Assembly: GCF_001028705.1 (NCBI RefSeq)
Contig: NZ_CP011770.1
Location: 747,501 to 811,500 of the forward strand
Reading direction: 5' to 3'
DNA length: 64,000 nt
From: Croceicoccus naphthovorans
Lineage (GTDB): Bacteria; Pseudomonadota; Alphaproteobacteria; Sphingomonadales; Sphingomonadaceae
How positions within the stretch are numbered: position 1 is the stretch's first letter; every line of letters starts with the position of its first letter. The position numbers were made by a program, and so were the translations under genes. Shown in pieces: positions 8,832-19,061 of the stretch. The notes beneath the pieces are model-generated. The model had not been told where the DNA came from. It did not search any database and saw nothing but the letters and a program-made list of their open reading frames with translations.

Positions 8832-8907
8832 GGGCCCTTAGCTCAGTCGGTAGAGCAACTGACTTTTAATCAGTAGGTCGCTGGTTCGAACCCAGCAGGG
8901 CTCACCA
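8832..8907 (+). tRNA. tRNA-Lys (anticodon UUU)
   Basis: A complete 76-base tRNA with encoded CCA. The acceptor stem GGGCCCT pairs with AGGGCTC (one G-U at position 2). The D-arm is GCTCAGTCGGTAGAGC. The anticodon stem ACTGA/TCAGT encloses the loop CTTTTAA with anticodon TTT. The T-arm CTGGTTCGAACCCAG is standard. The 3' 46 bases are the integration site of the adjacent mobile element, and the gene stays intact after insertion. Confidence 0.97.
8862..8907 (+). repeat. attL: 46-bp direct repeat in the tRNA-Lys 3' half
   Basis: This segment, from the anticodon arm to the CCA end of tRNA-Lys, is repeated without mismatch at 18405-18450. The first bases outside the repeat differ at both ends, so 46 bp is the full identity block. 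A duplicated tRNA 3' end flanking an integrase-bearing block is the standard mark of tyrosine-recombinase integration. Confidence 0.95.
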
Positions 8908-8969
8908 TAGATAACTGATAAATAAGAATAAAAATGACTTTCTGACTGTAAGGCGCGACCTTTGTCAAT

Positions 8970-8990
8970 TCGTGTCCGTGCTGTGTCCGT
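8970..8990 (+). promoter_or_regulatory. Paired GTGTCCG motif near attL (arm-type site or operator)
   Basis: The 21-bp block reads TCGTGTCCG-N3-TGTGTCCGT and recurs in the same orientation at 18241-18261, with only the N3 differing. It starts 63 bases inside the attL core and 15 bases before the GTG start of the next gene. The position and symmetry fit integrase arm-type binding sites, or an element-encoded repressor operator. Confidence 0.5.
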
Positions 8991-9005
8991 AATCTGGAGT
9001 TTGTA

Positions 9006-9287
9006 GTGGCCGAAGTTCCCGATCACTTGGTCCCGAGCGATGGTTTTACCAACTCCACCGTTCGCTATGCCGGGTTTGACGCCATTCCCGGTGAGAGCGG
9101 TGCTTCGCACAGATTCGAGTTCGTAGATGGTGACGGTAGGGTGATCGGTACCTACCGGATCGAAACTAAGCCAACCAGCGACGGAACGATCGATGCGATG
9201 GTCGCCGGTGCGCATAGACAGATGACGAATGTGCTGCGGCAATGGCTATTCGTCACAGATAAAGTGCGGGCACACTACGAAAAATAG
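9006..9287 (+). CDS. Unknown 93-aa protein beside attL
   Basis: A GTG-start frame with GGAG six bases upstream, giving a 93-residue soluble protein (MAEVPDHLVPSDG...). The middle part, HRFEFVDGDGRVIGTYRIETKPTSDG, looks like a small beta-rich domain; no family is recognised. The base composition is less GC-rich than the host genes. It is the first rightward gene after attL and may be part of the cargo with the protease-like gene that follows 124 bases later. The paired GTGTCCG motif sits just upstream of its start. Confidence 0.55.
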   Translation: MAEVPDHLVPSDGFTNSTVRYAGFDAIPGESGASHRFEFVDGDGRVIGTYRIETKPTSDGTIDAMVAGAHRQMTNVLRQWLFVTDKVRAHYEK

Positions 9288-9411
9288 AAAATTTGGTGGA
9301 GCCGTATCTATCGCTCAGCATCACAGGATGGCGCGTCATAGTGAATTTTCTTGTGCGATAGAGAGTTCGCTTGCATCAGTCGAAACCTGATTGGTTCTGT
9401 TGGGGGAATTC

Positions 9412-10293
9412 ATGGCATCCACTATGCCACTGTTGGATCGCGTAATCTTTGATACGGTGGGCATTGCAGAAGCCGAGGTCGAAGCGAGCCTAGATTGCGA
9501 CCTCCTGTATTATTACGGAGAGCTTCGTACTAGCAATTTCACCTTTTTTCGCGATTCTGTCGAGCGCTTGGCTGAGCGCGATGAAAAGCGAAATACGCTA
9601 GGTCTCTGTTTGACAACGCCGGGCGGGCAGGCTGAGGCCGTCGAACGAATGGTGGAAGTGATCCGTCACCACTATGACAACTTCTATGCCCTTGTCCCCA
9701 ACACCGCCATGTCGGCAGGAACAATTTTCTGCATGGCCGCAGATAAAATCTACATGGACTATGCCTCAGCTCTCGGCCCGATCGATCCACAAGTTCCGGA
9801 TCGTGATAATCGGGTACTGGTTCCTGCTCTCGGTTATCTCGACAAAGTTGAAGAGTTGATACAAAAGAGTACCCTTGGCACAATATCACCAGCTGAGTTT
9901 CAAATGTTGCAGAGCCTCGATCTGGCCATGCTGCGCTTTTATGAACAAGCGAAAGAGCTTTCAGTGAATTTGCTGAAAAAGTGGTTGGCTGAATACAAGT
10001 TCAAAAACTGGACCGAACATCGTACGACCAATCCCGGAACGCCAGTTACCTCGGACGAGCGGTCTGCTAGAGCTGAAGAGATTGCCACCAAGCTCTCAGA
10101 TAACAATCGCTGGCATTCTCATGGGCGCATGATTGGTATGGGAACATTGCGCGGAGAGATGCGCTTGGAAATTGAAGATTTCAGCCAAGATAGCAAACTC
10201 CACAATCAGATTCGGCGCTATGCAGACACGTTAACGGGATATATGGAACGACACGGTAACACCTTCACCATCTTCAATCGTCACCTTCAGTGA
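9412..10293 (+). CDS. ClpP/SppA-fold serine protease-like protein (SDH_sah/S49-like)
   Basis: A 293-residue protein, starting at the ATG after GGGGGA (an upstream TTG in frame would add seven residues). The core has the ClpP/crotonase-fold pattern of the SppA and 'serine dehydrogenase proteinase' groups: LCLTTPGGQAEAVERMVEVI, then PNTAMSAGTIFCMAADKIYM and SALGPIDPQ. Ser101 in MSAGT is the likely nucleophile and Lys145, in the helix YLDKVEEL, a candidate general base, as in Ser-Lys dyads of SppA-type enzymes. There is no signal peptide or clear membrane segment. Its low GC contrasts with the element backbone. The 60-aa gene starts eight bases later. Role unknown; defence or host takeover is inference. 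Confidence 0.7.
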   Translation: MASTMPLLDRVIFDTVGIAEAEVEASLDCDLLYYYGELRTSNFTFFRDSVERLAERDEKRNTLGLCLTTPGGQAEAVERMVEVIRHHYDNFYALVPNTAMSAGTIFCMAADKIYMDYASALGPIDPQVPDRDNRVLVPALGYLDKVEELIQKSTLGTISPAEFQMLQSLDLAMLRFYEQAKELSVNLLKKWLAEYKFKNWTEHRTTNPGTPVTSDERSARAEEIATKLSDNNRWHSHGRMIGMGTLRGEMRLEIEDFSQDSKLHNQIRRYADTLTGYMERHGNTFTIFNRHLQ

Positions 10294-10300
10294 GGCTATC

Positions 10301-10483
10301 ATGAGCATCGAAAAGGCGGTGAAAAAAGCGCTTAAAACCAAGAGTGCGAAGGGCGAATTTGCTGAGCAGCTAGAAAGCAATCGCGCCTTTAGCGATCGTA
10401 TGGGCCGTGCTGGGGTTGTTATCCGCAAACAGGAATTTTCGATCCCACTGATGGAGCGTATTGCTCACTCTACAAGGGGTTAA
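10301..10483 (+). CDS. 60-aa unknown protein paired with the protease-like gene
   Basis: A small protein rich in Lys at the N-terminus (MSIEKAVKKALKTKSAKGEF) with a C-terminal segment AGVVIRKQEFSIPLMERIAHST. It lies eight bases downstream of the protease-like gene on the same strand and has the same low GC. The layout suggests a two-gene unit in which the small product could be a substrate, adaptor or inhibitor; this is inference. No family is recognised. Confidence 0.55.
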   Translation: MSIEKAVKKALKTKSAKGEFAEQLESNRAFSDRMGRAGVVIRKQEFSIPLMERIAHSTRG

Positions 10484-10578
10484 TCAGTCGCTCCATTAGA
10501 GGATGGAACCGGGAGAGCGATGGAAACACGCCCTCCCGGCAGGCGGGGTGCCACGGGGAATGGAGACCTCCACCCCAC

Positions 10579-11253
10579 CTAATCCAGTTCGGGCCGTGCG
10601 GGCGCTTCGATGCCCAGCCGGTTTGCGGCCTGTACCGCGTTTGAATGGCCTGCAATCAGCGCGTGTTTCAGATCCGATGCGCGGCGGAATGCGCGTTCGT
10701 CCGCAAGGCGCTGTTCGTGGCGCTTCACCGCCTCCGCCAGTTCGGCCAGTTCCGCCGTGTCGCGCTCGACCTGTTTGGCGTAGCTATCGACGCGGGCCTG
10801 ATCCTGTTCGCGTTCCCGGCGCGCGCGATCGGCAACCGCCTTTGTTTCCTGCACGTCCAGCTTGCGCAGATAACCGCGAATATGCGCCGCCTCGACCATC
10901 AGTTCGGCGAGGTTCCGGTGACTTGGGTGGGCAGGTTTCAGATCGCCAAGGCCCAGAGCGTGCCAACGCGGATTATCCGGCGTTCCATCCTTGAACGTCT
11001 CAGCCTGCATCACCTCGCGTTCGTCGGGCGTCGGTGCGCGTAGGTTGCGGAAGTTCCCGCCATTCAGCTTCACGCCAAGCGCGTTGAGACGCTGTTCCGC
11101 CGATGTCCGACCGGTGATGAACTGCCCGTGCTGAATCTGCGCAGCGTTCAGAACCGGCCAATCAGGGCAATCCGCAGGTTCGGGCCAAAGCTTGGCGGGA
11201 TCGAGCGTCATCGTCCGGTCGATCACGTCGGGCTTTTCCTTTGTTGCCAGCAT
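10579..11253 (-). CDS. Unknown phage-type protein with coiled coil (224 aa)
   Basis: The 224-residue product has an N-terminal globular part (residues 1-110) and a long charged helix from about 115 to 185 (QETKAVADRARREREQDQ.., heptad-like) predicted as coiled coil. It is the last gene of the leftward transcript and starts three bases after the stop of the 109-aa gene. No family is recognised. Its place after TerL, where a portal gene would be expected, is notable, but the sequence does not look like a portal. Confidence 0.65.
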   Translation of the reverse strand: MLATKEKPDVIDRTMTLDPAKLWPEPADCPDWPVLNAAQIQHGQFITGRTSAEQRLNALGVKLNGGNFRNLRAPTPDEREVMQAETFKDGTPDNPRWHALGLGDLKPAHPSHRNLAELMVEAAHIRGYLRKLDVQETKAVADRARREREQDQARVDSYAKQVERDTAELAELAEAVKRHEQRLADERAFRRASDLKHALIAGHSNAVQAANRLGIEAPARPELD

Positions 11254-11256
11254 CGG

Positions 11257-11586
11257 TCAGCCCTCCGCCTTGGGGAGCGTAAAGCCGGGTGCAACCTTGC
11301 TCGATGTAGGCTGTTCCGACTTCGGAAGCTGAAATGCTCCAGGCACATTGCGCCGGTTCGTCGCGGGCACTGGCGCAGCCTTGGCGTCCAGTTCCTCCAT
11401 AAGCGGCTTGATCGCCTCGCCGATTGCTGCCTTCAGATTGTCGGGCGAGAACACCGCGTCCATTTCGGACAGGATGCCATCGACCTTTTCGGACAACTCG
11501 TCGAACTCGTCGCGCGTGACAGGATTTCCAGCCTGCGAAGCGGTGAAACGGCGGATCGGATTGATATTGGTCAGTGCAGTTTTCAT
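11257..11586 (-). CDS. Unknown 109-aa protein coupled to TerL
   Basis: Starts at MKTALTNINPIRR, whose ATG overlaps the TerL stop as ATGA, a typical coupled start; the longer frame to 11676 lies inside terL. The protein has an acidic helix (RDEFDELSEKVDGILSEMDAVF) and a Pro/Lys-rich tail. It looks like a small phage accessory or scaffold-like protein; no family is recognised. Confidence 0.6.
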   Translation of the reverse strand: MKTALTNINPIRRFTASQAGNPVTRDEFDELSEKVDGILSEMDAVFSPDNLKAAIGEAIKPLMEELDAKAAPVPATNRRNVPGAFQLPKSEQPTSSKVAPGFTLPKAEG

Positions 11587-13043
11587 TGGATGTAGAACCT
11601 TTCTTGAGCGGGACGATTGCTGCGCCGGGTCGCAATCCAAGGTCCGACTGTTTTCTTTGCTTGGAGAATGAGCCACACCGCCCCGGCGACGGAATTGGCA
11701 AGGTCGTCATGCCCACCGGGCGCATGGTCGATGCTTTCGCGGCCACCACGGGCCACGCGGCGCTCTAGGCCGACAATCTGATTGGCTAACTTGTCGTGAT
11801 CCAGCAGGTCGCACCGCTGGCTGTTCAGGGCGGGCAACAGGTCGCGATAGAGATCGCTGCGCACCGCCTCGCTGCAATCGTATTCGATGCCGTGCTTGCG
11901 GAATTGTTCGCGCGGCCATTCGCCGCCGTAGCGGTCGCCCGTCACCTTTCGGATGCCGTACTGTTTCAGCAGGTCGCAGAACTCGCCCACAACCGCCTCA
12001 GGGCTGAAAGGCGGCTTGCGCTCCCGTACAGCGTCCAGAACAGCAACGCGGTCGTCGCCCCCTTCCTCATGGGCAATCGCAAGCGTCATGCTGTCCTGAC
12101 TGCCCCCGCTGGGGTCCACGAAGGCCACGTAGCGCGTATTGTTGACGGGCGCGCGCTCATAGACGCCCGGTGACAGGCAGGCTTCCACAACCTCGCGCGT
12201 CACGAAGGCCTCAACATCGACACGGAATTGCGCGCCGAACTCTGCCGCCGCCGATGCCGGATCATCGTTGAACGCTTCGGTCAGGAAATCGCCATCGCGC
12301 TTGATGGTCGGATTCATGCGCCACGTAGGAGCTTGTACGATCAGCACCTTGCCCGGTTTGCCGTAGTGCTTGCGGTACTTCGTCCACAGCAACCCGCGCC
12401 GCGCGTAGGGTGACGAAATGCCGATAAGCATCGCGCCGGGGATCGTTGCCATTGCAGGTTTCACCGCACGGTAAACGTCAAGGTCCGGGTTCACGGTAGC
12501 CTCGCTGCGCCAGAATGCCACCTCGTCAAACACTACGGCAACCACAGTCCGCCCGCGCACCCGGCGCTGATCGTTGGTGGTTATCTCGATGCCCAGCCCG
12601 TTGGTCAGTTCCAGCCCGTCCGCCATCGACTTGGCCACCATCTGGGCAAGGATAGGCTGCTCAAAGTATGCGCGGAGATAGCCTAGGCAGACGCGGGCCT
12701 GATCGCGGTCAACGGCAAGGATTTGCACAACGCCCCGCTCGCCCCTCACCAGACGGGAGAGAAACCCAAGCTGTTCCGCACCGAACGTGGCAAGGAACGC
12801 GCCAAGGGCTGCGGCCTTCACGTCCTTGCCGGACCTGCGCCCACAGACAAACCACGCTTCCTCTGCCGGTTCGGTCGGTGCCTCGGTCCTGCCGGTCAAC
12901 TCGGTGAAGGTGGCCAGTTCGTCTGCGTCGAGCGGTTCGCCGAACAATGCCTTGTCCACCACGCGCCACGCGGCCCAGCTATCCGCCTCAAACCAAGGGC
13001 CGAATAGGTTGGGATCGGTGCAGGCCTCCGCGAAGGTAATCAT
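11583..13043 (-). CDS. Phage terminase large subunit
   Basis: A 486-residue terminase. The ATPase domain has Walker A GRRSGKD (residues 68-74) and Walker B VVAVVFDEVAFW (Asp-Glu at 173-174). The C-terminal RNase H-like nuclease has VAFVDPSGGSQDSMT (Asp310), KVTGDRYGGEWPREQF (~375) and GGHDDLANSVAGAVW near the end, giving the three-acid metal site. It cuts and pumps phage DNA into procapsids. It overlaps the preceding small-subunit-like gene by four bases. The motifs are intact, so the protein should be active, yet no portal or capsid gene is present in the element. Confidence 0.93.
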   Translation of the reverse strand: MITFAEACTDPNLFGPWFEADSWAAWRVVDKALFGEPLDADELATFTELTGRTEAPTEPAEEAWFVCGRRSGKDVKAAALGAFLATFGAEQLGFLSRLVRGERGVVQILAVDRDQARVCLGYLRAYFEQPILAQMVAKSMADGLELTNGLGIEITTNDQRRVRGRTVVAVVFDEVAFWRSEATVNPDLDVYRAVKPAMATIPGAMLIGISSPYARRGLLWTKYRKHYGKPGKVLIVQAPTWRMNPTIKRDGDFLTEAFNDDPASAAAEFGAQFRVDVEAFVTREVVEACLSPGVYERAPVNNTRYVAFVDPSGGSQDSMTLAIAHEEGGDDRVAVLDAVRERKPPFSPEAVVGEFCDLLKQYGIRKVTGDRYGGEWPREQFRKHGIEYDCSEAVRSDLYRDLLPALNSQRCDLLDHDKLANQIVGLERRVARGGRESIDHAPGGHDDLANSVAGAVWLILQAKKTVGPWIATRRSNRPAQERFYIQ

Positions 13044-13480
13044 GCCGCCCCCGCCTTCTCAGCGGCCTTGTGGGCGGCATACTCGACAATCGTAGGGGTG
13101 ATGTTGCGGGCGGTGCGTTCTAGGCCCAGATCGCCCAGCAAGCGGCGCAGCGTGTTGCTGGCAGTGGTATAGGCCTTAACGTCGAACTCTTCGCCATTGG
13201 CTGCGGCTGCGTCCTGTTCCTCACACCAGCACACCAGCGAGGCAGCACGGCGGGCAAGCTGCGATTGTGCCTCCGAAGGGTCGCCGCCCATGTCGGTGAC
13301 GAGGCTGGCCAGAACCTCGCGATAGCGCCGGAACGTGGCTGACCGGCCATCGACGCCAGCAAGGACAGTCGAGCCGTTGCCTACGCGGGTGCGGGCCTGT
13401 GGCTTGGGAACGTCTATCGCGGCGGTATCAGCGGGCAAGATTGCCTCCAACGTGCGGACCTTATGCGGACACGAACGCAC
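13040..13480 (-). CDS. Putative terminase small subunit
   Basis: A 146-residue protein from a GTG start. It lies directly before TerL with a four-base overlap, the usual place for TerS. The sequence has helices consistent with a small DNA-binding subunit (RRYREVLASLVTDMGGDPSEAQSQLARRAASL and a second helical block LRRLLGDLGLERTARNITP), but no clear HTH signature. The call depends on position and size more than on motifs. A single TCGTGTCCG-type motif lies across its first codons. Confidence 0.6.
   Translation of the reverse strand: MRSCPHKVRTLEAILPADTAAIDVPKPQARTRVGNGSTVLAGVDGRSATFRRYREVLASLVTDMGGDPSEAQSQLARRAASLVCWCEEQDAAAANGEEFDVKAYTTASNTLRRLLGDLGLERTARNITPTIVEYAAHKAAEKAGAA
13463..13474 (-). 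promoter_or_regulatory. Third copy of the TCGTGTCCGCAT motif at the terS start
   Basis: Read on the minus strand the block is TCGTGTCCGCAT, identical to the first 12 bases of the paired motif at 18241. An AT-rich stretch with TATAT lies just upstream of it. Its place at a second leftward transcript start favours an operator role. Confidence 0.35.
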
Positions 13481-13669
13481 ATAGAGATATAAAAATCAAG
13501 CTATTTCAAGGAATATGTCACGATATGGCCACTGATAAGGAAACAGTGGCATGATGTGTCTGGGCGAGCGTCGGCTAGGCAGCCGGATCATAATTTCCCA
13601 TTGGCCAAGCAAAAAACGTGCCAAGCTGTTGAATTTGTCTGCCCGTTTCCCAGCCCGATCATAGCTACA

Positions 13670-14455
13670 TCAAAACACCATCACCGCGTCGGATAGCAAT
13701 TCACGGTATTTGCTTGGCAGATTGCCGCCGTTGATGAACTTGGACAGGGTGCCTTGCGGTATGCCCAGCCCATCAGCAAGCCGCGATTGCTCGCCCACCT
13801 CATTGCGTTTCAGGTGATTCAGCGTGGATGTTCGCAAAGCGTCCAATTCGGCCCGCGTATCAGGATTGGCTTGTTTCCGTTGCTCTGTTTCCAAACCATC
13901 AGACCCTTCCCCCTGGCTAACTGTTTGTGGCTCAATATCTGAGAAATACGAATTGGCGGAATTGACAGGTTTTTCCATTTCATCTGGCTTAGTTTCTGAG
14001 CCAGTAAGAGGCAGTGTTTCCAATCCAATGTCAGAAATTGAGCCCGGTTGTGTCAGAAACTGGTCCCGCGAATTTTCGTGTTTCCATTTTTCATAGGCGT
14101 GCGACGGTGCCCGGTTCGGCCCCGTTGGTCCTGCAAGCCATGTGAACCCGTACTTGGCCGCGTGGGGTGTTTTGCGGCTGAAGCCGCCCCGTTCACTGCA
14201 ATAGAGGAAACCTGTCTCGATCAGCTCGGCAATGGCGCGGCGAACAGTATTTCGCGATAGCCCCGTCATCTCTGCGCCGGTTCGGTCGCTGAAAAACCAT
14301 TCGCCGTTGTTGTCGCCATTTTCGAACAGGCCCATCGCCAGCATGACTTTTACCGCTGAGCCGCTGAGCGCGCGCCAAGCCTCGGTATCGATCTGTTTCT
14401 TGAACGATCGGACATGTTTCCGCTTGTCGATATAGGTCGAGCGATCCCGCCCCAT
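13670..14455 (-). CDS. Winged-HTH protein, probable replication or regulatory protein
   Basis: A 261-residue protein with two DNA-binding parts. The N-terminal ~110 residues look like a replication-initiator-type winged helix (SGSAVKVMLAMGLFENG..GLSRNTVRRAIAELIETGFL). The C-terminus has a Cro/XRE-like HTH (QSRLADGLGIPQGTLSKFING, ~225-245). The middle is Ser/Thr/Glu-rich and of low complexity. In phage satellites a gene at this place commonly starts replication; here a repressor role is an alternative. It begins three bases after the stop of the Toprim gene, so both are in one transcript. Confidence 0.65.
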   Translation of the reverse strand: MGRDRSTYIDKRKHVRSFKKQIDTEAWRALSGSAVKVMLAMGLFENGDNNGEWFFSDRTGAEMTGLSRNTVRRAIAELIETGFLYCSERGGFSRKTPHAAKYGFTWLAGPTGPNRAPSHAYEKWKHENSRDQFLTQPGSISDIGLETLPLTGSETKPDEMEKPVNSANSYFSDIEPQTVSQGEGSDGLETEQRKQANPDTRAELDALRTSTLNHLKRNEVGEQSRLADGLGIPQGTLSKFINGGNLPSKYRELLSDAVMVF

Positions 14456-14458
14456 CTA

Positions 14459-15340
14459 TCAGCCCTCCCGCTCGCGCAGACCGGCCAGCACGTCGAAATA
14501 GTCGCGGGCGGACTGTTCCTCGATCAATGCGGTCTTGACGGCATCGACTGGCAACAGGCTTTCAATGTGGTCAGCCAGCAATTTGCGCAGTGCGTGTGCA
14601 GGCATCGCCTCCGCCTCGACAGTGTGTTCGATGTAGCGAGCGCGCTTGTCACCCGCCTTTCTGGGCTTTGTCGGCAAGTCGTAATCGTGGATCTGTTCGG
14701 GCGTGATGGCGATGCGGCGAAAATCTATCCGCACATCCTCTTCCAAATGCTCGATCAGCTTTTGGTGAATGTCCTGATCGATCAGAACGCCTGCCGGATC
14801 GTAATCGCCGATATAGAATATCACCGCCGGTCGCCCGGCAGAGTAGGCGCGGATGTACTCTGCGGACTGATAGGCCAGCGTCATCGATGTGAAACCGCCC
14901 GCCGGGTACAGGCTCACCGCAAGGCGTTCGCAGTCATCCTGAATAACACCGGCGATGGACCGGCTTTCGCACCAGACTTCGCAATAGACATCAGCATCGC
15001 GCCAAACATCGGCACGGTACTGCCGCGATACCGCGCGCAGGAATTGTGCCTCATCGTCATAGGTTGCGACGTGATAGCCGCGACAGGTGGAATCGCTGAT
15101 CCAGCCATAAGGCAGCGAACCGGAGCGCCGAAGTTCTGCAACCCGGTGTTGAACTTGGTTATAGCCGTTGTCGGTCTTCTCGACCGGTTCCGGCAAGCGC
15201 GGATTGGTCATCCGGTAGAAGACGTGGCGAACGGACTGCGGGTGGTCAGCCCGCAGAACGTCCATGATCTGGCTATCAAGTTGATCGACCTGCGCGCGCG
15301 TCCGACGACGGCGCTTTATCTGGCCCGCCTGATAAGCCAT
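14459..15340 (-). CDS. Topo VI subunit A/Spo11-like Toprim-domain protein
   Basis: A 293-residue protein. Near residues 38-44 RHVFYRM resembles the tyrosine region of the Topo VI-A/Spo11 winged helix (Y42 the candidate). A Toprim-like core follows: a conserved Glu in VYCEVWCESRSIAG (121 or 125), then FYIGDYDPAGVLIDQD with Asp179 and Asp181 of the DxD motif. No B-subunit (GHKL ATPase) gene is nearby. Relatives occur as single genes in phages and plasmids as I recall; their role is not settled, possibly DNA nicking in replication. It starts one base after the acidic-protein stop. Confidence 0.7.
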   Translation of the reverse strand: MAYQAGQIKRRRRTRAQVDQLDSQIMDVLRADHPQSVRHVFYRMTNPRLPEPVEKTDNGYNQVQHRVAELRRSGSLPYGWISDSTCRGYHVATYDDEAQFLRAVSRQYRADVWRDADVYCEVWCESRSIAGVIQDDCERLAVSLYPAGGFTSMTLAYQSAEYIRAYSAGRPAVIFYIGDYDPAGVLIDQDIHQKLIEHLEEDVRIDFRRIAITPEQIHDYDLPTKPRKAGDKRARYIEHTVEAEAMPAHALRKLLADHIESLLPVDAVKTALIEEQSARDYFDVLAGLREREG

Positions 15341-15341
15341 G

Positions 15342-15986
15342 TCAGGCAGGATCGCCGGGCTTGCGCAGATCGTCGGTCGCTTTCGTTACCAGCGTTTTGC
15401 CGGTATCCGCCGACAACACCTCTCCGCCGTTTGTGCGGAAGCTGGCCGTCAGGTTACCGATGCCGAGAAATTGGCGCTCGTCGCTGAACAGATTGTAGTC
15501 GAGCGAATAAGTTGCGAGCATCGGCACATCGTCCTGCATCTGCTCGCGCTCTGCGTCGATTTCATCGCCAGCGCCGGTCTCGACATAGAACCCGCCGCCG
15601 CGAACGACAGCGCCGCTCATTATCCGGTCATCGCCAGCAGGGCAGCAATCCTCTTCAGGATCGATCCCCAGCGGGTTATCCTCGACGCCTGTGTCGGGGT
15701 CATCGTCTTCGGCGTCTTCGTGCCCGGCGGTGCGGTTCGGTCCCGACCGGGTGGACGGGTGCATATTCTGCCATTCCAGCCAAGCCAAGTCCTGGTCGGT
15801 GCCGTCGCTTTCGGCAGGGTCATCGTCTTCAGTGTCGGGATCGCCGTCGGCCTCGTTGAGCCGTTCCAGAATTATGGCGGCAGCACGCCCGCTGACTTCC
15901 TGCATCGCGGTGAGGCCCTGCAGAATCGCTTCAAGATCATCCCGAGCAAGAGCGATGGCCCTGTTTGACAGTTGAGGGAGGTTCAT
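15342..15986 (-). CDS. Unknown acidic protein (214 aa)
   Basis: Starts at MNLPQLSNRAIALARD with GAGGAGG seven bases upstream, an excellent ribosome site; the longer frame to 16028 is less likely. The middle is very acidic (EADGDPDTEDDDPAESDGTD and DAEDDDPDTGVEDN), followed by a more structured C-terminal half (MLATYSLDYNLFSDERQFLG). An acidic, DNA-mimic-like composition in a mobile element suggests interaction with a DNA-binding partner, but this is inference. No family is recognised. Confidence 0.6.
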   Translation of the reverse strand: MNLPQLSNRAIALARDDLEAILQGLTAMQEVSGRAAAIILERLNEADGDPDTEDDDPAESDGTDQDLAWLEWQNMHPSTRSGPNRTAGHEDAEDDDPDTGVEDNPLGIDPEEDCCPAGDDRIMSGAVVRGGGFYVETGAGDEIDAEREQMQDDVPMLATYSLDYNLFSDERQFLGIGNLTASFRTNGGEVLSADTGKTLVTKATDDLRKPGDPA

Positions 15987-16155
15987 AGCCGTGCCTCCTC
16001 GAAATAGGGGGCGAGGCGCATCAGCCATGTTAGGCGGTTTGCCATGGTGGCATTTGCTTGGATTTTCTGGCGATGTGGGCTAAGGCTGAGGGTGTCCGCC
16101 GCAATGGACATTCCAGCCCTCGCGCCCTGCTCGGCGCGGGGGTTTTGCGTTTGGA

Positions 16156-16371
16156 TCACCGGACAGCCCTCCGCGCATTGGGTTTGCGTTCACGGCTGGC
16201 GAGCCACTCTGCGGATGCGCGAACGGCGCGATATTTGCGCCCGCCCACCATCCAGTAGGGCAATCCGTTTGGCTGATTTGAATAGCGCGCGAGAGTGCGC
16301 GTGGTGACGCCCCAGCGGGACGCCAATTCAGCATCCAGAATGAGTTCGTCGTTCGGTATATCGATTGTCAT
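16156..16371 (-). CDS. AlpA/excisionase-like small DNA-binding protein
   Basis: A 71-residue protein with a MerR-like winged HTH typical of AlpA and excisionase proteins: DAELASRWGVTTRTLARYSNQ followed by GLPYWMVGGRKYRAVRASAEWL. Such factors direct excision and activate integrase in P4-like and PICI-like elements. It sits 81 bases downstream of the 176-aa gene in the leftward backbone. Confidence 0.8.
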   Translation of the reverse strand: MTIDIPNDELILDAELASRWGVTTRTLARYSNQPNGLPYWMVGGRKYRAVRASAEWLASRERKPNARRAVR

Positions 16372-16452
16372 CGTTGCCGCCTTTCGTTTGAAGGTCGGCC
16401 AACATTGGTCAGAAAGCTGACAGTGTTTTAAGGTGCGCTTTGAGCGGTTTGC

Positions 16453-16983
16453 TCACCCCATCTCTCGAAAAGCCTTTTCGTATCGATCCAGCATGGCGTT
16501 TGAGTTTTCTGAATAGAGTCGCTTCTGCTCAGAAATTTGACTTTCTGACCAACCTGCTCGTTTTTGCACCTCGTCGAATAGGCGCGCAAACTCTGCTATT
16601 TCTTGATCGCTTTTGCGAACGGCCATGTCCTTATGGCGCTTCAAGTATGATTTGAGCGTTTCTTCATTGATTTCCGGATTCAGGAACAGATACGCCTCAG
16701 CCGCTCTATATCGCGAAACCCCGAAATGCTTCGCCACGGTGTAGACTTCGTGCGCGATATTAACTTCGCGGCGGATCTGTGACGCTGTTCGTTGGTTTCC
16801 CGGCCTTCGCTTGATTTCGCCGCGAAGGTGTGCCGCCAGAAATATACGAATGGCATCATCTATAACGCCACCAGCTTCAATATGGCGGGCCAAATGCTCC
16901 GTTTCTCCGAGCTTTGCATCACCTAAGGCGATGGCTGCATCAGGATCGAAAGAGTCCGGCAACTCGATGTCGGAGTATTTCAC
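16453..16983 (-). CDS. Unknown 176-aa protein overlapping integrase stop
   Basis: Begins at a GTG whose G is the last base of the integrase stop (TAGTG), so it is translated in coupling with int. The helical product contains QRTASQIRREVNIAHEVYTVAKHFGVSRYRAAEAYLFL (HTH-like around AKHFGVSRYRAAEAYL) and a charged C-terminal helix. It may be a regulator or a recombination directionality factor; no family is recognised. Confidence 0.55.
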   Translation of the reverse strand: MKYSDIELPDSFDPDAAIALGDAKLGETEHLARHIEAGGVIDDAIRIFLAAHLRGEIKRRPGNQRTASQIRREVNIAHEVYTVAKHFGVSRYRAAEAYLFLNPEINEETLKSYLKRHKDMAVRKSDQEIAEFARLFDEVQKRAGWSESQISEQKRLYSENSNAMLDRYEKAFREMG

Positions 16984-18227
16984 TACTTCGCTGCCTTCAT
17001 TTGCACGACTTCCGCAACTTCGTTGGATGGCATAACAATCGCACCGACGCGCTCGGTTGCTTGCCGCAGCGGATCATCCATCAGGTGCGAATAACGGGCC
17101 GTAGTGGCGGGTTGGCTATGGCCCAGCAACGCGCCGATGATCGGCAAAGACATGCCGCTCGAAGCCAGAACGCTGGCGTAAGTGTGGCGCAGGTCGTGGA
17201 TGCGCGCCGATGGCGTCACGATGGTCTTTTCCTTGCCCTTGGCGTCCGTTTCGGTCGTGATCGTCACGATTCCAGATGCAACACACAGATTGTGCCACGG
17301 TCGCTTTATTTCCTGCCTGTGGCCTTCGTCGCGACCGGGAAACAGGTATTCCGCATCCTTCGCTGCGGCTTTGCGCATATCGTCCAGAAGCTGGCGGGCA
17401 GGGGCCGACAGGGGGACGCGGTGCAAGGTTTTCTGCTTCGTGGTGCTGCCGGGCTTCGTCCAGACGCCAGCATCAAGGTCGAACTGTTCCCAGCGCGCGG
17501 CCAGAACCTCACCCTTGCGCGCGCCGGTCAGGAGCAACAACCGAACGATGTTGGCCGCGTCCTGATCGTCGTGTTCGGCCAGCGCCTTGGTCAACGAAGC
17601 CAATTCAGCAGGGGAAAGATAGCGGTGCCGCTTTTCCTCACTGTTCCGCTCGATGCCCTTTGCGGGATTATCGGTGCGCCAGCCCCATTTGATCGAAAGA
17701 GAAAACATCTTCGACAGCACCGAAACAGTCCGGTTTGCCACATAGGTCGCGCCCGACTTGGTAATCTTGCGGTGCAGGGCATCCACATCGGCGAAGGTCA
17801 CTTCGGAGACTTTCACGTGCTTGAGCGCGGGCAGGATATGGCGAGCAATTAGCGCCTCGTAATCGCGCTTGGTGGCTGGGCGCTTTTTCGGAAGGTGTTC
17901 ATCCTCAAACCGCTTGCACAGATCGGCGACGGTCTTGGCCGCGCGTTCTGCATCGACCTCAGCCATTGGATCGTCGCCAACGTCGATGCGCCGCTTAAGC
18001 TCTTTGGCTTCTTCGCGGGCAACTGTTGTTTTCCAGTCAGGAAAGCCCCCAATCGTAATGCGGCGCTCGCGGCCTGAACGAGTCCGGTAGTTCAGCACGA
18101 ATGAACGCGCACCCGCCGCCGTCGTCCGAACTCCAAACCCGCGCACCTCCGTATCGTAGGTGATCCGATTGCCCTTCGCAGGGAGGGGTAGGGCTTTGAC
18201 TATCGTATCAGTTAGCCGCTGGGCCAT
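16983..18227 (-). CDS. int: Tyrosine-type site-specific integrase
   Basis: A 414-residue integrase of the P4/DUF4102 class. The N-terminal arm-binding domain is visible (TYDTEVRGFGVRTTAAGARSFVLNYRT), then the core-binding SAM-like domain (~residues 90-175) and the catalytic domain. Active-site residues: Arg in LLTGARKGEVLAAR, His-x-x-Arg in IHDLRHTYASVL, His/Trp-position His in LLGHSQPATTARYSHL and the final Tyr in ARYSHL. It is oriented away from attR, 178 bases from the core repeat. The internal ATG was chosen because the upstream extension overlaps the paired GTGTCCG motif. Confidence 0.95.
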   Translation of the reverse strand: MAQRLTDTIVKALPLPAKGNRITYDTEVRGFGVRTTAAGARSFVLNYRTRSGRERRITIGGFPDWKTTVAREEAKELKRRIDVGDDPMAEVDAERAAKTVADLCKRFEDEHLPKKRPATKRDYEALIARHILPALKHVKVSEVTFADVDALHRKITKSGATYVANRTVSVLSKMFSLSIKWGWRTDNPAKGIERNSEEKRHRYLSPAELASLTKALAEHDDQDAANIVRLLLLTGARKGEVLAARWEQFDLDAGVWTKPGSTTKQKTLHRVPLSAPARQLLDDMRKAAAKDAEYLFPGRDEGHRQEIKRPWHNLCVASGIVTITTETDAKGKEKTIVTPSARIHDLRHTYASVLASSGMSLPIIGALLGHSQPATTARYSHLMDDPLRQATERVGAIVMPSNEVAEVVQMKAAK

Positions 18228-18240
18228 TGTCAGTTCGCTC

Positions 18241-18261
18241 TCGTGTCCGCATTGTGTCCGT
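18241..18261 (+). promoter_or_regulatory. Paired GTGTCCG motif upstream of int (arm-type site or operator)
   Basis: TCGTGTCCG-N3-TGTGTCCGT, the same as the attL-side copy apart from N3. It lies 14 bases before the int start and 144 bases from the attR core. A single inverted CGTGTCCGC is present at 18348-18356. The set could be integrase arm sites that also autoregulate int. Confidence 0.5.
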
Positions 18262-18404
18262 CCAGATAACGGCACCTAATGCGCGCATAATGTCCACCGG
18301 CGTCCTGATAAGTCAAGCAATAAACCGCTTAAATCCGTCACTTATCTGCGGACACGGGCGGTTATGAATCAAAATCAATGGGTTAGCAGATGAGCAAAAA
18401 AGGA

Positions 18405-18450
18405 ACTTTTAATCAGTAGGTCGCTGGTTCGAACCCAGCAGGGCTCACCA
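18405..18450 (+). repeat. attR: 46-bp copy of the tRNA-Lys 3' end
   Basis: Exact copy of 8862-8907. It contains only the 3' part of the tRNA (from the anticodon loop), so it is not a second functional tRNA gene. Confidence 0.95.
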
Positions 18451-18638: not shown

Positions 18639-19061
18639 TCAGTTGGTGGAGATGTGCAGCGCCTTGTGCTGTTCGGCCCAGAAAAGGGGCATGTCGCCCA
18701 TGCGCCAAAGATCGCGGGCGCCGAGATGCGATGCGTGGCTGCCGTCGAGAATCGACCGGATGATGGTCGGATCGAGATAGCTGATGCGGGCAACGCGCTG
18801 GATGTGGCGGAGCTTTTCGACTGGCAGCGCATCGGTTTCTGACTGGTCCATCTGGAGGAGTTGCTCGCGTGCCGCGAATGCCCGGGCGAGAAGTTCGGTC
18901 AGCCGTTCATCCTTTTCGGTCGATGCATTGCCGGTCGGCTCGAGGCGGAGCATTGCCTCGTGACCATACCTGGCTGTTGGGTCGGCATGACGATGTCGAT
19001 TGTTCGATCAGGCATGCCATTCAGATCTGCAGCTGCGCCGAGAGCTGATGCGCTGAAGGAA
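18639..19061 (-). pseudogene. Remnant of a large serine recombinase (C-terminal part)
   Basis: An in-frame stretch from 18953 encodes RLEPTGNAS...LLARAFAAREQLLQ and YLDPTIIRSILDGSHASHLG, ending MPLFWAEQHKAL. This is the C-terminal pattern of large 'recombinase family' proteins, which normally have an N-terminal resolvase domain and a zinc ribbon. The preceding residues TIDIVMPTQ continue in another frame and rejoin at YGHEAMLRLE, showing a frameshift near 18975. The catalytic domain is absent. It is a relic of an older element next to attR. Confidence 0.6.

Follow-up and report, generated by a model that had tools for sequence, protein, structure and literature searches.

We analysed a 64,000-nucleotide stretch of the Croceicoccus naphthovorans genome (assembly GCF_001028705.1, contig NZ_CP011770.1, positions 747,501 to 811,500; hereafter the window), in which an insertion, designated the window element, lies between two repeats of a tRNA-Lys gene. 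This insertion is best read as an integrated phage satellite equipped with a packaging motor of its own, namely the small and large terminase subunits TerS and TerL, while a helper would give the other parts of the particle. We put the probability of this reading at roughly 0.6. An earlier note, made from the DNA letters alone, had proposed a capsid-less satellite in tRNA-Lys, and the proposal held, as the nearest relatives of the TerL belong to other portal-less elements and all genes of the window element are open. In the following text, L- and G-numbers are labels of the compared loci and genomes.

The boundaries of the window element were determined by a repeat search. Two exact 46-bp copies of the 3' end of tRNA-Lys, which the earlier note had also reported, were located at 8862-8907 and 18405-18450, and the size of the element was therefore set at 9,543 bp. 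A 19-bp motif, CGTGTCCGnnnTGTGTCCG, is present in two perfect copies just within both ends of the element, and these are the sole copies with zero mismatch in the 64 kb. When up to three mismatches were allowed, three matches were obtained where 1.05 were expected; in 11 of 100 shuffles, three were reached as well. The two perfect copies would flank the joined attachment site in an excised circle, as the arm sites of an integrase would. A third arm-like copy, at 13455 with three mismatches, is not above chance and was rejected.

The comparison of the tRNA-Lys locus with related genomes, which the earlier note had proposed, was made with 13 other genomes of the genus. The folK-tRNA-Lys locus was found in 12 of them (the tRNA was called by ARAGORN in 11 of the 12), and G303 gave a short match to the tRNA end only, with no folK-tRNA junction. 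No gene of the window element was detected in the 1.8-13 kb fetched behind folK-tRNA-Lys of the 12 genomes. The earlier note had named a related full prophage at this site as the observation that would speak against a satellite; such a prophage was sought and not found, and none of six other genus genomes searched whole had a TerL match at E<=1e-20. In four genomes of the genus, copies of the tRNA end adjoin other integrases (28-38% identity), and thus the tRNA-Lys site is used by other elements too. The right flank of the window element (18451 onward) was not found adjoining tRNA-Lys in the other genus genomes, and because it is not syntenic, a clean empty site cannot be read. Just to the right of the element there is an open reading frame (ORF) of 104 amino acids (18639-18953) with no Pfam match, and the DNA between 18451 and about 19700 finds almost no match in the other genomes of the genus.

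The genes of the window element were named mainly by Pfam and PHROG scans. A simple gene caller of our own skipped orf176, the AlpA-like gene and orf60, and these were taken from a program-made ORF list; orf93, the cargo protease and orf60 were scanned in Pfam, not in PHROGs. In the gene set given by the earlier note, the integrase, the TopoVI-A-like gene and TerL were supported by matches to phrog_1, phrog_6247 and phrog_2, respectively, the AlpA-like gene by a weak match, and the TerS-like gene by position and conservation only. The gene listed there as a winged helix-turn-helix gene is instead most like O-type replication initiators, and a rightward cargo of three ORFs (9006-10483), with a ClpP/SDH-like protease, was missing from that list. 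An integrase of its own, defined attachment repeats and the lack of a full virion gene set are general features of phage satellites, and all were seen here. Mobilization by a helper phage, a further general feature, is presumed for the window element. The portal, capsid, tail and lysis genes that characterize a prophage were not found by the ORF, Pfam and PHROG scans, just as the earlier note had stated. None of its unassigned ORFs exceeds 228 amino acids, which is too small for a portal. Primase, helicase, HNH, capsid, head protease and head-tail connector families were also absent from the Pfam and PHROG scans; the cargo protease has a match to ClpP-related head proteases that is below the cut-off. 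The search of 10 proteins of the element against a defence library gave nothing convincing, the best hit being a short match of the initiator to a helix-turn-helix (2.1e-4), and a scan of viral contigs with the initiator gave nothing that was confirmed.

Within the packaging module, conservation is highest for TerL. Residues K73, D173, E174, D310, D370 and D447 do not vary among the eight aligned rows, and we take them to be the Walker A, Walker B/catalytic and nuclease residues. No Pfam match was obtained for TerL, and its profile matched none of the solved structures at E<=0.01. Between the window element and its relative L087, codon positions 1, 2 and 3 differ by 0.21, 0.17 and 0.49 in terL, and by 0.27, 0.22 and 0.48 in terS, and these values point to purifying selection on both genes. 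For orf224, which had no match in the phage records, a model built from two rows (predicted local distance difference test, pLDDT, 77) predicts a helix at residues 110-213, and no significant fold match was obtained.

Evidence for the satellite also comes from the close relatives of TerL. Seven relatives at 64-74% identity were found in G131 (L011), G882 (L087), two Hyphomicrobium genomes (L006 and L007) and three IMG/VR contigs (L008, L009 and L098), and together with the window TerL they form one clade with an SH-aLRT support of 100. This was a quick tree of 52 TerLs with SH-aLRT (an approximate likelihood ratio test) as the only support; rows shorter than 380 amino acids were removed beforehand, as was a second, partial TerL copy in L092, and L111, L132 and L141, which have no called TerL, are not in it. 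A TerS-like gene precedes TerL in all eight members (that of L009 was seen by tblastn only). The order TerS-TerL-orf139-orf224 is common to four elements, the window element, L011, L087 and L098, of which three sit in three different tRNA genes, and it is kept although the integrases of the window element and L011 share only 25% identity. The end repeats derive from tRNA-Lys(ctt) in L011 (19 nt), tRNA-Asn in L087 (17 nt) and tRNA-Arg in L006 (27 nt), and L007 has a weak one from tRNA-Ser (15 nt only). No end repeat was found in L008 and L098; the ends of L009 were covered by a terminal-overlap check only. The clade members differ in the virion genes that they carry. The window element and L011 have none. 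L087 and L098 have an added tail fibre of 716-717 amino acids, 71% identical between them, and the one of L087 matched phrog_5616 (6.7e-60) and nothing in Pfam. L006 and L007 have a tape-measure protein (phrog_3336; 5.9e-83 and 1.2e-71). L008 has a head protease (phrog_80, 3e-49) and a capsid protein (phrog_10, 1.7e-84), with homologous genes in L009, and a tape measure (phrog_24) is present in both. No portal was seen in any of the eight members by called ORFs, PHROG scans of chosen ORFs and PF04860, and a PF04860 search of the complete records of L098, L008 and L009 was likewise negative. The sole unassigned called ORF of more than 300 amino acids in the clade (306 amino acids, at the far end of L009) is membrane-protein-like.

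Several observations weigh against the satellite reading. The helper, and the excision, packaging and transfer of the window element, are predictions from the sequence. The name TerS is based on the place of the gene directly 5' of TerL and on its conservation among 13 aligned members (window included), of which none matched PHROG, and no significant match to Pfam or NCBIfam was obtained. A search for a pac or cos site in the terS-upstream regions of the window element, L087, L011 and L098 gave no motif of at least 10 bp in at least three of the four regions; one 9-mer is common to three of them. The absence of a portal in the relatives was judged with a simple gene caller, which may miss small genes, with PHROG scans of chosen ORFs and with one Pfam portal model. 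The TerL family is rare: it was found in 2 of 298 genomes from the bacterial family, 3 of 385 in a class sample and 3 of 396 in an order sample, each count including the own genome. The sole PF05065 capsid and PF04860 portal of the genome, for which these two Pfam families were searched, lie in one RcGTA-like cluster. Finally, lower-identity relatives of TerL are present also on contigs with portal genes, for example phrog_146 in L123 and phrog_145 in L112, and by this result the idea of a satellite-only terminase, which came from the first scans, was ruled out.

These portal-bearing relatives would also suit a decayed prophage, from which the structural and lysis genes were lost while the integrase, replication and terminase genes were kept by chance, and defective prophages are common. 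We regard this explanation as quite unlikely. The genes are all open, and the codon positions of terL and terS point to purifying selection. The reduced module recurs in the four elements described above, and the nearest relatives of TerL also lack a portal. Furthermore, the DNA fetched behind tRNA-Lys from the 12 genus genomes held no gene of the window element.

The wider terminase family was examined by a second profile scan of viral contigs, which gave 48 TerL loci, 43 of them first seen there and the new ones mostly at 43-53% identity. Outside L062-L065, the tree has 48 rows, and 14 of these have a portal family in the fetched locus; cut contigs make up many of the remaining 34, and a general count of portal-less elements is therefore not claimed. 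The portal families were labelled from a BLAST graph, in which two families were checked by PHROG (one member each) and the third by BLAST to PF04860 proteins. L120, L121, L123, L124 and L125, which have portal genes, and L129 are placed next to the clade of eight with a support of 94 (not starred). In further loci, TerS-TerL is accompanied by tape-measure, baseplate hub or neck genes. The deeper relatives L058 (9.4 kb) and L059 (9.8 kb) are contigs whose exact terminal repeats are 60 and 114 bp long, respectively. Both carry an integrase, TerS, TerL and a tape measure, together with a neck-like protein (phrog_5, 2.7e-9 in L058); no PF04860 portal was found in them, and no capsid or portal among their called genes. 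PF04860 was found in one of 16 records searched, an IMG/VR record of 56.6 kb (L103, L142 and L143). In this record, a TerS-TerL-tape-measure element occupies about 1-15 kb, and a siphophage that looks complete occupies about 25-48 kb. The siphophage terminase shares 53% identity with the L065 terminase and belongs to another family than the window TerL. The record holds a possible satellite-helper pair. Related TerS-TerL genes are also carried by plasmids of Methylobacterium (L091, TerL 51%), Komagataeibacter (L092, TerL 45%) and Roseomonas (L093, 9.7 kb, partial TerL), and a head-protease gene follows TerL on the Komagataeibacter plasmid (phrog_12864, 6.8e-91). Among 50,697 phage records, 92 matched TerL, all at less than 60% identity and none covering 80% of TerL.

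The presence of different virion genes behind TerL in the sister elements suggests that this group swaps odd virion parts into the helper particle. We tentatively consider, at somewhat less than even odds, a distinct class of satellites ('motor satellites') with a TerS-TerL core and no portal, in which different lineages would add a tail fibre, a tape measure, a neck protein and tape measure, or a protease, capsid and tape measure, replacing the helper parts. Such a satellite would alter the borrowed particle in head size, tail length or host range and use its own motor to pack its DNA. The window element would be a stripped-down member, with orf139 and orf224 at the place where part-swapping genes may sit.

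The genome holds a second portal-less element, inserted in tRNA-Asn and bounded by a 19-nt repeat (L010; G000:C1:1281500-1301400). It carries an integrase, an AlpA-like gene, the initiator, a fragment of orf228, TerS (phrog_309, 4.5e-11) and TerL (phrog_2, 1.6e-27; phrog_979, 1.1e-21), and is interrupted by a gene that is presumably a transposase. Its TerL has no BLAST link to the window TerL; since both match phrog_2, they are remote relatives. The TopoVI-A-like protein has relatives at 51-62% in eight IMG/VR contigs. Four of these, L062-L065, have an integrase, TopoVI-A, initiator, capsid, protease, portal, TerS-placed gene and TerL, named by similarity, within 10.3-12.0 kb. This layout appears close to that described for the capsid-forming phage-inducible chromosomal islands (cf-PICIs), though no HNH gene was identified. 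Between their TerLs and the window TerL lie the longest branches of the tree by a wide margin. Relatives of the replication genes are thus found with only remotely related terminases, and the packaging and replication modules seem to recombine.

The RcGTA-like cluster mentioned above (L096, own genome C1:718000-737900) is identified as a gene transfer agent (GTA) also by its PF23666 and PF09343 matches, and its portal gene lies about 19 kb to the left of the window element. The element might accordingly be a satellite of this resident GTA, whose packaging would be replaced by the TerS-TerL of the element so that GTA heads are filled with element DNA. We consider this very unlikely. The heads of such GTAs have room for only about 4 kb, less than the 9.5 kb of the element, and the tail-fibre or tape-measure genes of the relatives in other taxa suggest a phage helper. 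The short distance may be due to chance, and the portal search of the genome was made with PF04860 only. Because the GTA head is too small, an infecting phage is a likelier helper than the GTA, which is a possible one.

In the satellite reading, a helper phage would trigger the window element, and the integrase would excise a circle by recombination between the two 46-bp repeats. The TopoVI-A/initiator module would replicate it. TerS would recognise a site on the satellite DNA, and TerL would dock on the portal of the helper procapsid and fill procapsids with this DNA. The products of orf139 and orf224, which are kept with the motor, are candidates for fitting it to the helper particle. The head, tail and lysis would be given by the helper, and release would occur by helper lysis. 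The protease cargo may be a helper-exclusion gene. Alternatively, the element may be a satellite packaged mainly by the TerL of its helper, with its own TerL as a passenger or as an interference protein that poisons helper packaging. The phage-inducible chromosomal islands (PICIs) are described, in the parts of the sources available, as using a TerS or a cos site together with the helper TerL (PMC6092414, PMC10690885), and a matching helper portal is not known for the window element. We judge this alternative unlikely, as the ATPase and nuclease residues are invariant across the eight aligned TerLs, a TerS-like gene stands before TerL throughout the clade, and no gene of the module is better conserved than TerL.

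A homologue of the cargo protease (51%) directly adjoins a LexA-family repressor within a lambdoid prophage region of an E. coli plasmid (L144 5920-6993), and the protease and a small ORF are present also on a Methylosinus plasmid (L145 4833-6049). Small ORFs of 56 and 76 amino acids are similarly placed after two protease homologues, and no BLAST match was found among the small ORFs. In lambda, the corresponding place beside the repressor holds the rex exclusion genes, and a helper-exclusion role for the protease cargo is therefore a fair guess. The protease and the small ORF may form a superinfection-exclusion or defence cassette. The protease also matches ClpP-related head proteases weakly (1.6e-6, below the cut-off), and a role as head protease is the alternative. 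The positions of all features are summarized in Table 1.

Table 1. Features of the window element and its integration site (positions in the window).
Feature	Position	Strand	Basis
tRNA-Lys(ttt), integration site	8832..8907	+	ARAGORN; Rfam tRNA 75.5 bits
Left attachment repeat, last 46 bases of tRNA-Lys	8862..8907	+	exact repeat
Candidate integrase arm site, left (CGTGTCCGTGCTGTGTCCG)	8971..8989	+	perfect motif match; arm-site function inferred
Cargo ORF, 93 amino acids (orf93)	9006..9287	+	ORF list, Pfam scan
Cargo ClpP-fold SDH-type serine protease	9424..10293	+	PF01972 2.4e-14; NF047768 2.4e-17, below cut-off
Cargo small ORF after protease, 60 amino acids (orf60)	10301..10483	+	ORF list
orf224, predicted long C-terminal helix, conserved after orf139	10579..11253	-	40-46% in three relatives
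orf139 (109 amino acids from ATG at 11586), conserved after TerL	11257..11586	-	31-44% in L087, L098, L011
Large terminase TerL, conserved ATPase and nuclease residues	11583..13043	-	phrog_2 1e-22; residue conservation
Putative small terminase TerS, alternative GTG start at 13480	13040..13438	-	position and conservation
O-like replication initiator, winged helix	13670..14455	-	phrog_270 2.9e-8, phrog_345 9.1e-8; 84.7% over 261 amino acids in L010
TopoVI-A-like (TOPRIM) protein	14459..15340	-	phrog_6247 2.3e-45; 1d3y TopoVI A E=0.033, weak
orf228	15342..16028	-	no Pfam/PHROG match; 69% over 48 amino acids (fragment) in L010, same genome
AlpA-like excisionase/regulator	16156..16371	-	phrog_66 1e-4, weak
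orf176, helical protein	16453..16983	-	no significant family match (Pfam, PHROG); low-confidence model, pLDDT 52
Tyrosine integrase with arm-binding domain, start codon uncertain	16983..18239	-	Pfam PF00589 2.8e-22, PF13356 2.4e-15; phrog_1 2.6e-71
Candidate integrase arm site, right (CGTGTCCGCATTGTGTCCG)	18242..18260	+	perfect motif match; arm-site function inferred
Right attachment repeat, exact 46-bp copy of tRNA-Lys 3' end	18405..18450	+	exact repeat search

No portal-less satellite with its own TerL is described among the matches listed in our literature search, and the VEIME work (Eppley 2022), the tycheposon work (Hackl 2023) and the survey of de Sousa 2023 may hold one. The same search gave no paper on Sphingomonas satellites or prophages with an integrase and a terminase. 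In the available parts of the published descriptions, satellites either use the large terminase of the helper or bring a whole head. If the reading is true, the TerL of a portal-less satellite with its own complete motor has to work on a foreign portal, and motor-portal specificity could thus be tested by genetics. In the sister elements, the odd virion genes would then amount to a natural experiment on the exchange of head, tail-length and receptor-binding parts. The finding points to motor-bearing satellites in sphingomonads and other Alphaproteobacteria.

Among the known systems, P4-like satellites carry a P4 alpha-type primase-helicase and the Sid/Psu capsid genes, and the integrase of the window element is presumably of the P4 type. 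The window element resembles them in the integrase in a tRNA gene, the AlpA-like gene and the presumed reliance on a helper for particles. However, family scans, in which the P4 proteins themselves were not compared, detected no primase-helicase or capsid-modifying family in it, and it has its own terminase, whereas P4 is described in the available part of the source as using that of the helper (PMC10690885). Classical PICIs are described, in the part of the source available, as having no phage structural or lytic genes, a pri-rep replication module followed by an origin, and phage-dependent induction, interference and specific packaging (PMC6092414). The window element resembles the classical Gram-negative PICIs in its tRNA-type attachment site, int, AlpA-like gene, own replication genes and lack of structural and lysis genes; its replication genes are the O-like initiator and the TopoVI-A-like gene, with no primase match in PHROG. 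Its complete TerL is different, as PICIs are described in the available parts of the sources with at most TerS or cos sites (PMC6092414, PMC10690885). The cf-PICIs encode a major capsid protein, protease, portal and head-tail connectors, with an HNH endonuclease in the packaging module, according to the available part of their description (PMC10690885). The window element is like them an integrated island of about 10 kb with an integrase, an AlpA-type gene, its own TerL and a putative TerS named by position and conservation, and shares TopoVI-A and the initiator with L062-L065, the IMG/VR islands of near cf-PICI layout. Unlike the cf-PICIs, it has no portal, capsid, head protease, connector or HNH gene in the Pfam and PHROG scans. 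Two other systems were likened by description, with no sequence comparison. The PICMI elements of Vibrionaceae also have a very small gene content and no capsid genes, whereas the word terminase is absent from the text of the PICMI paper (PMC10803314). AH14b of Pseudomonas sp. ANT_H14, as described in the available part of its source, likewise has no structural genes and is packaged in capsids of a co-resident prophage (PMC4936722), but it is 16.8 kb long and belongs to a pseudomonad. Since the head genes and HNH of the cf-PICIs and the features of P4 are missing from the window element, and its TerL departs from the descriptions of classical PICIs, we place it as a variant of phage satellite outside those families.

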